From Candidatus Nitronauta litoralis (lineage in GTDB: Bacteria; Nitrospinota; Nitrospinia; Nitrospinales; Nitrospinaceae): a DNA stretch of 64,000 nucleotides. Of the stretch, positions 17,381 to 19,792 are shown piece by piece. The translations under genes were made by a program, and so were the position numbers. Numbering within the stretch: position 1 is the first letter of the stretch; every line of letters begins with the position of its first letter. The DNA lies in the NCBI GenBank assembly GCA_015698285.1, contig CP048685.1, positions 3,536,060-3,600,059 on the forward strand, in the 5' to 3' direction. Under the pieces are notes generated by a model that was given only the letters and a program-made list of their open reading frames with translations, ran no database searches and was not told where the DNA came from.

Positions 17381-17887
17381 CTATCGCAGACTACCTCTAA
17401 GTTTATCGAGGATCAACCTGAAGGTTGAGGTGAAGGGCAGCGTTTCATCCTGAAGTGAGGTTTCAATTTCATTTAGAGACCAGAAACGTCCCTCGGAAAT
17501 TTCATCAGGGTTAATTACAATATTTGCATCAGAGGTGCAGAGATAAACCCTGACATGCTCAAAAAAGGTCTCCGAACAGGCGCTGAATTTCCCAATTTCC
17601 TTTAGATCCGCTTTGATTCCAAGTTCTTCCTCAAGTTCACGGTGCGCACAACTTTCATAATCCTCTCCAGAATCGACATGGCCCGCTGCAGAAGTGTCCC
17701 AATAACCCGGATTTTCATCCTTAGCCAGTGATCGCTTCTGGAGAAACAATTCCCCTTTTGAGTTGAAAACAAGAATATGAACGGAGCGATGCCGCAATCC
17801 CCGCTCATGGACTTCCTTCCGGGTTGCCTGTCCTATGACCTGGTCATCCTGATCGACCACATCAAAAATTTCTTCTGACTCATGCAT
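17381..17887 (-). CDS. NUDIX hydrolase
   Basis: This 168-residue NUDIX pyrophosphohydrolase resembles the Idi/YfcD-like subgroup: an N-terminal EIFDVVDQDDQVIGQATRKE extension, HRSVHILVFNSKGELFLQKR, and the NUDIX box region AAGHVDSGEDYESCAHREL followed by EEELGI. The box residues (G-x5-E-x7-REx2EE) appear complete. The substrate is not predictable; isopentenyl-diphosphate isomerase is a possible relative, but the protein is short and lacks clear Idi hallmarks. It is 20 bp downstream of the HPr-domain gene on the same strand, so co-transcription is likely. Confidence 0.9.
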   Translation of the reverse strand: MHESEEIFDVVDQDDQVIGQATRKEVHERGLRHRSVHILVFNSKGELFLQKRSLAKDENPGYWDTSAAGHVDSGEDYESCAHRELEEELGIKADLKEIGKFSACSETFFEHVRVYLCTSDANIVINPDEISEGRFWSLNEIETSLQDETLPFTSTFRLILDKLRGSLR

Positions 17888-17907: not shown

Positions 17908-19224
17908 CTATTCAATGGAGCCCCTGAGATAATCCAGCTCTGCCGGGACCTCTTTCTCTTCGCAATAATTATGGGATGCCAGGATTTTCAAGTCATCCAG
18001 TATTCTTTTGTCTCCCTCGAATACCACCGTCTTATACCCCTTGTCCGCCAATTCTCCTCCAGCTTGCAACAAACCCATTACAGATCGCGCATCAATCTTT
18101 TCATTATCAATAATAATGCAGGCATCACCTTCATAGCGCCGAACAATTTTGGAAACATAGGTAGAGGGTCGGGCATGAAATCCAAGCGGGTCTGGCACCG
18201 GTAACTCATAACGAACCGTTTTCACAAAAACCTTTAGAAGCTCTTTGCTGAGCTTGTCCCCTTCATGCACATAGTAAAGAGAATAATAAAAACAGTAGTT
18301 CACGACGTGGGACAATAAATCGTTTTTATCAACCAACCCGCTGATAACTTTCTTTGCTTCACCTTTTCTGATTTCATCTTCATGACGTTCATAAAAATGA
18401 ATCAGCCAGATCATCATCTCGAGCAGGTGAAGTGGCATCGAGATATAGCCACGCAGGCCTTTCAACCCCTCATGCTTCTGTTCAATGGGAGTACTTTTTA
18501 TGTAGGTATCGAATTCTGATTGAATACTGTGCACCAGATTCATTAACATACGTGCGTTTTTTTCATCGATTTTGTCAGGAACAATTGCTTTCAATGCTTC
18601 AGGCACCTGTGTCCGCTCAACTTGCATCGCCTCCATCAGACTGCCCACTGCTTGCATTTTTTCCAGCATGTCAATGATCCGGTCTTCTTGTTCATTGACC
18701 TCTTCACCTTCTACATTTTTTGGAAGCCGCTTATTGGCTTCCAGCAATGCAAAATTATCAGGATCGATGGCAGCCTCGGGAATTGCCAACTGGTTTTTCT
18801 TCCCCTCTTCAATACATTCCAAAAAGAGTTTCAGGATGGAGTTATTTAAAAAGTCCAGAACCACATTTGAATCGTTAAAAAATCGCCCTTGCACTTCCTC
18901 AGTATCCCGCAACTTGTAAAAGGGATAACGATCAACCAGATGCTTACAAAAAAATGCTGCTTTAACCAGGTTTCGAATACAGGCAACATACTCTGTAAAA
19001 CCGGCCCAGGTTTTATTTTCGCGGGCACCGTGTTCATCCAGGAAACTTTCCAGTAACTCCGCCTCTTGAATCAGACTCGAATAGCATTTCCGGGTCGCAC
19101 CTCCGTCGCCTTGAGGAAGGTCTCGAAATGCATTGAAGGTTTTGAAAAATGCACCACAGCTATCCTGAAGAAGAATCAAAAATTCTTCTTCGGAAATTAT
19201 TTGATTCAGCGATTTTGGTTCCAA
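17908..19224 (-). CDS. Unknown protein with a C-terminal HPr (PTS phosphocarrier) domain
   Basis: The 438-residue protein has a ~335-residue helical N-terminal part with no recognised family and an HPr-like domain from about residue 335. The HPr active-site motif GFHARPS places the phosphorylatable histidine at residue 350. DARSVMGLL places a serine at 381, exactly 31 residues later, the same spacing as His15/Ser46 in HPr. Both phosphorylation sites are therefore conserved. The N-terminal part is mostly helical with charged stretches and no signal peptide, so the protein is cytoplasmic. No PTS enzyme I, HPr kinase or EII gene is nearby. It precedes the NUDIX gene and follows the HNH gene on the same strand. 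A regulatory role is inferred. Confidence 0.82.
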   Translation of the reverse strand: MEPKSLNQIISEEEFLILLQDSCGAFFKTFNAFRDLPQGDGGATRKCYSSLIQEAELLESFLDEHGARENKTWAGFTEYVACIRNLVKAAFFCKHLVDRYPFYKLRDTEEVQGRFFNDSNVVLDFLNNSILKLFLECIEEGKKNQLAIPEAAIDPDNFALLEANKRLPKNVEGEEVNEQEDRIIDMLEKMQAVGSLMEAMQVERTQVPEALKAIVPDKIDEKNARMLMNLVHSIQSEFDTYIKSTPIEQKHEGLKGLRGYISMPLHLLEMMIWLIHFYERHEDEIRKGEAKKVISGLVDKNDLLSHVVNYCFYYSLYYVHEGDKLSKELLKVFVKTVRYELPVPDPLGFHARPSTYVSKIVRRYEGDACIIIDNEKIDARSVMGLLQAGGELADKGYKTVVFEGDKRILDDLKILASHNYCEEKEVPAELDYLRGSIE

Positions 19225-19249: not shown

Positions 19250-19792
19250 TCAATTTATAGAATTGCGAGCTTTAAGTGCTGGAGGCAGGTATTTATACCA
19301 GCTTTCCAAATGCTCCTCAGAAGCGGATGGAATCACAAATGAATGGTAATGAAAGTTCGGGCGAAAAGGTTTTTTCTTGAGTGGCATTCCAGCTTCAACC
19401 GCTGTCCTGCTGCCTTTTTTCAAGTTACAGGGTTTGCACGCCACCACAACATTAGTCCAACTGGTACCGCCTCCACGTGATTTGGGAATAACATGGTCCA
19501 CCGTCAACATATTCTCGCGAACTCCACAATATTGGCAGGTGTAATTGTCTCTTCGCATTATATTCTTTTTACTGAAAGACAATCCTTTGCCCATATTTCG
19601 CCGTACCATTTTCAAAACCCGTATTACCGTTGGCAAAGCAAAGCTCTGGTTTGGCGAACGGACAATATACCCGTTTGATTCTATTTTTTCCGCCCGTCCA
19701 GACAAAACCATGATGATCCCCCGTTTTGCCGTGCAAAATTGCAGGGGTTCATAAGAAAAATTAAGAATCAGAACTTTTTGCTCATCCAGCAT
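19250..19792 (-). CDS. HNH endonuclease
   Basis: The 180-residue protein contains a canonical zinc-finger HNH nuclease module: YTCQYCGVRENMLTVDHVIP, then SRGGGTSWTNVVVACKPCN. Two Cys-x2-Cys pairs and the central D-H and N residues are present. The N-terminal region (VLILNFSYEPLQFCTAKRGI) is that of the widespread stand-alone HNH family found in many free-living bacteria, whose role is unknown and which is not tied to phages. It sits 25 bp upstream of the HPr-fusion gene on the same strand. Confidence 0.92.
   Translation of the reverse strand: MLDEQKVLILNFSYEPLQFCTAKRGIIMVLSGRAEKIESNGYIVRSPNQSFALPTVIRVLKMVRRNMGKGLSFSKKNIMRRDNYTCQYCGVRENMLTVDHVIPKSRGGGTSWTNVVVACKPCNLKKGSRTAVEAGMPLKKKPFRPNFHYHSFVIPSASEEHLESWYKYLPPALKARNSIN

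Follow-up and report, generated by a model that had tools for sequence, protein, structure and literature searches.

An HPr domain fused to a conserved helical domain as candidate phosphocarrier of a regulatory PTS in Nitrospinota

The window, a 64,000-nucleotide stretch of a single-contig 3.92-Mb genome with Nitrospina and MAGs of Nitrospinaceae as its named near relatives, contains a gene (17908-19224, minus strand) for a protein of 438 amino acids plus stop in which a helical N-terminal domain is followed by a C-terminal HPr domain. On balance, we favor the reading that this fusion serves as phosphocarrier in a permease-poor regulatory phosphotransferase system (PTS) of the Ntr type, joined to its own effector domain. 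As judged from gene content, it is the only candidate in this genome for carrying phosphate from enzyme I (EI) to PtsN, because PF00381 finds no second HPr domain on the single contig, leaving the fusion as the sole HPr, and because both EIIA-Man, which is absent from the genome, and a free HPr are missing between ptsN and the EI gene.

The fusion protein and its two domains

The TTG start of the fusion is aligned with ATG, GTG or TTG starts in nearly all homologues, and no plasmid homologues were found. The initial annotation described an HPr domain fused to an unknown helical domain, and the open reading frame, a PF00381 match and the AlphaFold model (57 sequences, mean pLDDT 88.9) all bear this out. 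Mean pairwise identity is 65% for the HPr domain versus 52% for the N-domain. GPCRs are among the Foldseek matches; the maximal 19-residue hydropathy is 1.17, and a membrane-protein reading was therefore rejected.

The HPr domain, delimited by PF00381, the model and Foldseek, spans residues 336-433 (17926-18219, minus strand), including a C-terminal extension specific to the family. PF00381 matches residues 340-389 with 29.7 bits (E=7e-7), above its gathering cut-off of 23, which is exceeded in 61 of 77 Nitrospinota genomes. The match spans only positions 4-52 of the 81 in the profile, the C-terminal part of the fused HPr being divergent, and the score compares with ~75-103 bits for free HPr; with TIGR01003, the NCBIfam model for the HPr phosphocarrier, the fused domain reaches 33.1 bits against a cut-off of 47.9. 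Residues 336-417 are modeled with the element order β-α-β-β-α-β-α, and Foldseek matches the domain to solved HPr structures with a probability of 1.00 and a target-normalized TM of ~0.7 (up to 0.76). Beyond canonical HPr helix 3, at residues 419-432 (17929-17970, minus strand), lies the signature NYCE..P..L.Y, which is invariant in Nitrospinota and absent from the free HPr sequences compared; the family-specific tail reads NYCE..P..L.YL.

The equivalents of HPr His15 and Ser46 can be read directly from the sequence: His350 (18175-18177, minus strand) sits in PLGFHARPSTY and Ser381 (18082-18084, minus strand) in IDARSVMGLLQA. Their separation of 31 residues, to which the initial annotation had drawn attention, is indeed that of His15 and Ser46 in E. 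coli HPr. The same annotation had named a histidine not conserved in close homologues as a ground for rejecting its view, and the alignment contradicts this: none of the 58 Nitrospinota proteins departs from His350, Pro353 or Ser381, and 57 of them have Arg352, the other having Lys. All 11 relatives from outside the phylum keep His350, Arg352 and Pro353; in one, the distant relative L154, Cys takes the place of the serine. Combined, the profile match, the modeled fold, the conserved residues and the spacing of 31 place the HPr identity of the domain far beyond chance. Two distant relatives (L154:7852-9468 and L157:7928-10510), one of them that with the Cys, have HPr domains interrupted by a large insertion that follows helix 2 and precedes the final strand.

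The N-terminal part (residues 12-333; 18226-19191, minus strand) is predicted to be an all-helical domain, with a confident model (pLDDT 91.1, pTM 0.90) and no known family or fold found for it. Its 67 members gave only scattered weak matches and no family match in Pfam, no relative was detectable in NCBIfam, no PTS domain was matched, and the PDB sequences yielded no convincing match, the best being to a designed protein (E=0.009). At E<=0.001 no related fold was found in the PDB or the viral library, to which the comparison was limited, and a new fold is not claimed. A free-standing copy of the domain was found in none of 385 genomes. Across the 67 sequences, with identities down to 25%, 17 residues are invariant, the polar and charged ones being E59, D63, N70, E78, R84, R99, S236, R258, H266, H276, E279, R280 and H281; so many charged residues and histidines kept across divergent sequences point to a putative functional site.

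Two proposals for the N-domain were rejected. The best Foldseek match is the CHAD domain of 6qva, which is likewise all-helical with conserved histidines; a CHAD identity was not accepted because the match is weak (E=0.15, TM ~0.3, rmsd 17.6) and is joined by no sequence support, Pfam listing no CHAD match and hhalign giving a probability of 0.1 against a shallow YgiF CHAD set. Internal duplication was suggested by similar helix lengths and by H..DR / H..ER motifs, and the hhalign score of the two halves, 10.6, is below those of reversed and shuffled controls.

A proposed PTS of Ntr type and the probable loss of free HPr

The EI gene lies at 3,804,685, 249 kb from the fusion gene, in the order rpoN-hpf-ptsN-EI. 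The earlier statement that no EI gene is nearby is thus true locally and does not extend to the genome, and a genome lacking PtsI and PtsP, which the initial annotation had put forward as evidence against itself, is not what was found. EI is intact: it has 591 amino acids, matches a PtsI-type model from residue 4 and has no PtsP-type N-terminal GAF domain. The motifs of the active-site His, Arg and Cys (GGKTSH, FRTEYL and CGE) and the HPr-binding subdomain are kept in EI sequences across the phylum. PtsN, whose gene adjoins that of EI, contains the motif GIGENVAIPH and is one of two EIIA-2 proteins in the genome. The other (L069:1459-2145; G000:C1 near 2003391-2003807) is a 228-residue HTH-EIIA protein, its HTH-like N-terminus read by eye rather than by profile, and is a candidate DNA-binding PTS output of the same genome.

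By gene content the system resembles PTS-Ntr, with both the canonical GAF-containing EI and the free NPr missing. As in PTS-Ntr, the partners EI and PtsN are present, with ptsN and ptsI beside rpoN and hpf, and the fused domain shares with NPr/PtsO an HPr fold with equivalents of His15, Arg17 and Pro18. NPr, however, is a free protein of ~90 residues usually encoded in the rpoN-ptsN operon, whereas a stand-alone NPr or HPr is lacking here and its counterpart is the C-terminus of a 438-residue protein encoded 249 kb away. PtsP has an N-terminal GAF domain, unlike the EI found here, which is closer to the EI-R group (PMC2405797).

With its catalytic motifs and HPr-binding subdomain retained, EI must have an HPr to work with, and none other than the fusion is present; it is mainly on this argument that we infer a carrier function. 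EI would take phosphate from PEP and transfer it to the fused HPr domain at His350, and from there it would reach PtsN and the second, HTH-linked EIIA. The phosphorylation state of His350 would also report the PEP level to the N-domain and alter the action of that domain on its presumed target. Most likely, then, phosphorylation of His350 by EI would both feed PtsN and set the state of the N-domain. Of the Ntr-like phosphorelay with a new output domain proposed initially, the relay agrees with the gene content (EI by rpoN-hpf-ptsN, two EIIA-2 proteins, no EIIA-Man and no other HPr) and the novelty of the domain with its want of known relatives; a functional second phospho-site is the part that is not supported.

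Among Nitrospinota, the fusion is found in 62 of 77 genomes and in 29 of the 31 good ones, nearly always in single copy and in a few genomes split over two pieces; EI is found in 71 of the 77 and in all 31. Free HPr occurs in only four Nitrospinota genomes (G072, G074, G075 and G076, all of family f9), where it lies beside EI. Outside the phylum the fusion family is sparse, with 11 carriers in about 340 genomes spread over the domain. Eight of these also have a free HPr, which adjoins EI in six and is on a different contig from EI in G146 and G402; in G243 and G195, EI is present and the fusion is the sole HPr. All three genomes of the small phylum to which G281 (L147), G146 and G402 belong carry the fusion, and in G281 itself, which is 96% complete, neither EI nor free HPr was detected.

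The operons around EI also differ. The arrangement hpf-ptsN-EIIAMan-HPr-EI is found in G074-G076 of family f9 and in outgroups, among them G136 and G271; the f5, f6 and f7 representatives have ptsN-EIIAMan-EI; and Nitrospinales, together with G071 and G073 of f9, have ptsN-EI. EIIA-Man was assigned in these operons from one NCBIfam match and BLAST to that match. The simplest account of this comparison across families and outgroups suggests that free HPr was lost on more than one branch, with EI, PtsN and the fusion retained. The EI residue at E. coli position 76 is His in genomes with free HPr, whereas every Nitrospinales EI examined has Tyr, as do L118 (G068) and L175 (G243), where the fusion is the only HPr; exceptions with His are G001, G002, G195, G071 and G073. 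This split, though not perfect, could reflect co-adaptation of the HPr-binding face.

The occurrence of free HPr also bears on a different proposal, in which the fused HPr no longer hands phosphate on and is a docking module for EI or EIIA, phosphorylatable or not, that only regulates the N-domain. The divergence of the HPr sequence, the coexistence of free HPr in f9 and in most carriers outside the phylum, and the retention of the fusion in G281 all speak for such a module. We nevertheless regard it as unlikely: the His-x-Arg-Pro active-site motif is present in all relatives bar one Arg-to-Lys change, and in Nitrospinales the fusion is the only HPr available to the HPr-binding subdomain that EI retains. 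The reading of the fusion as carrier and effector is itself weakened by several of these observations, namely G281 with its fusion and no detected EI or free HPr, the modest Pfam score and sub-threshold TIGR01003 score of the fused domain, and two genomes (G027 and G067, both 92% complete) with EI in which the fusion was not detected. Moreover, most genomes outside the phylum have the fusion together with a free HPr beside EI, so that in those genomes the role of general carrier need not fall to the fused domain.

Gene neighborhood and a possible link to murein

In Nitrospinales the fusion gene belongs to a conserved run, HNH-fusion-Nudix-(MutS2-sized gene)-CvpA-like. In the window, the HNH-endonuclease-like gene lies 25 bp upstream (19250-19792, minus strand) and the Nudix hydrolase gene 20 bp downstream (17381-17887, minus strand); the former shows similarity to IscB-like HNH proteins. 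In f5 and f9 a gene for an M20D amidohydrolase directly follows the fusion gene, overlapping it or a few bp away. Beyond the phylum, genes of murein recycling or division are frequent neighbors: an M20D amidohydrolase gene adjoins the fusion in G136, G393 and G271 and is followed by AnmK; LdcA, a PBP4B-like protein and Mpl are encoded near the fusion in G281 and G146, in two different orientations, with a layout in G402 similar to that in G146; and in G301 the fusion immediately precedes RsmH, with FtsI and MurF downstream. A class IV aminotransferase had appeared to be a neighbor common to Nitrospinales and f9, an artifact of clustering that merged different proteins: that of f9 is IlvE (450 bits against a cut-off of 279), and that of the window reaches no cut-off.

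These surroundings raise the idea that the N-domain takes part in the recycling of murein (peptidoglycan) or in growth of the envelope, being either an enzyme itself or a regulator of neighboring enzymes, with HPr as a sensor of PEP or energy and the general-carrier role in Nitrospinota a later take-over. Polar and charged invariants are what a site would be expected to have, and there are parallels in other systems, in that PtsN controls GlmS in Salmonella (PMC5024086; reviewed in PMC13104625) and NPr, according to a cited work, acts on LpxD. The association is post hoc, however, and comes down to some three gene arrangements that are independent of one another; no such neighbor is found among the annotated genes at four distant loci (G329, G243, G195 and G244), the neighbors in the order to which the window belongs are FAD oxidase, HNH, Nudix and CvpA-like genes, and the N-domain matched no enzyme fold. 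We therefore regard this account as doubtful, and a contact of the N-domain with murein recycling or envelope growth as a lead of equally low probability.

Ser381, known systems and implications

That the protein is a classical HPr of Gram-positive type with an HPr(Ser) kinase acting at Ser381, as the invariance of this serine in Nitrospinota and an HprK-domain protein in the genome might suggest, is highly improbable, since that protein is an HprK-related kinase B far under the HprK cut-off, beside an ATP-grasp and an amphi-Trp protein of the GAK system, and since E. coli HPr also has Ser46, yet the E. coli control gave no HprK match. No HPr(Ser) kinase was found in the genome at the curated cut-off (best TIGR00679 score 34 bits against 240), and a classical HprK was rejected, the sole HprK-domain match being the kinase B (TIGR04355, 496 bits). 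The GAK cassette that encodes it lies at L007:132-2450 (G000:C1 about 2542124-2544442), and a literature search found no mention of the names HprK-related kinase B and amphi-Trp. The genome search proposed initially thus yielded an EI and no true HprK, and the missing kinase, offered at the outset as counter-evidence to the whole relay, bears on Ser381 only. Both phospho-site residues are kept, as had been claimed; Ser381 is probably not kinase-regulated, because no true HprK was found in the genome, and has most likely been retained for a structural role in the HPr fold. Crh, which has lost the active-site His, and HPr(Ser-P) of Firmicutes resemble the fused domain in their conserved Ser46 equivalent and an SVM-type helix 2, and differ from it in that here no HPr kinase reaches the cut-off and the His is kept.

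Fused HPr proteins known so far pair HPr with EIIA or EI (PMC2405797). The fusion resembles FruB/FPr, DhaM and the multiphosphoryl transfer proteins in that HPr is one domain of a larger protein; in those the partners are PTS domains, whereas the helical domain joined to HPr here shows no relation to PTS domains that could be detected. The literature on PTS fusions and GAK yielded nothing on an architecture of HPr with a helical N-domain, nor was a report of a carrier that is also an effector found in the literature searched. The words 'fused' and 'fusion' are absent from the main text of a 2026 review of PTS-Ntr (PMC13104625), and the Nitrospina and Nitrospinota genome papers examined mention neither PTS nor HPr.

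Tentatively, and at well under even confidence, the family may be a new kind of effector, in which HPr is hard-wired to a helical domain bearing a conserved polar site, that arose beside a normal PTS, probably in the control of murein recycling or the envelope, and in Nitrospinota replaced free HPr, such that all flow from PEP to PtsN would pass through the effector. The family also defines an uncharacterized domain that is conserved throughout the phylum and has a limited number of invariant residues. In this nitrite-oxidizing marine bacterium and nearly all Nitrospinota, HPr, the small phosphate relay of sugar and nitrogen sensing, is present solely as the C-terminal part of a longer protein, and the relay may thus be tied directly to a regulated activity of the N-domain. 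If so, the nitrite oxidizers of a major marine phylum would have a PEP-sensing relay whose carrier doubles as an effector, and the fusion would offer direct access to the coupling of carbon and energy state with nitrogen and envelope functions in these autotrophs.
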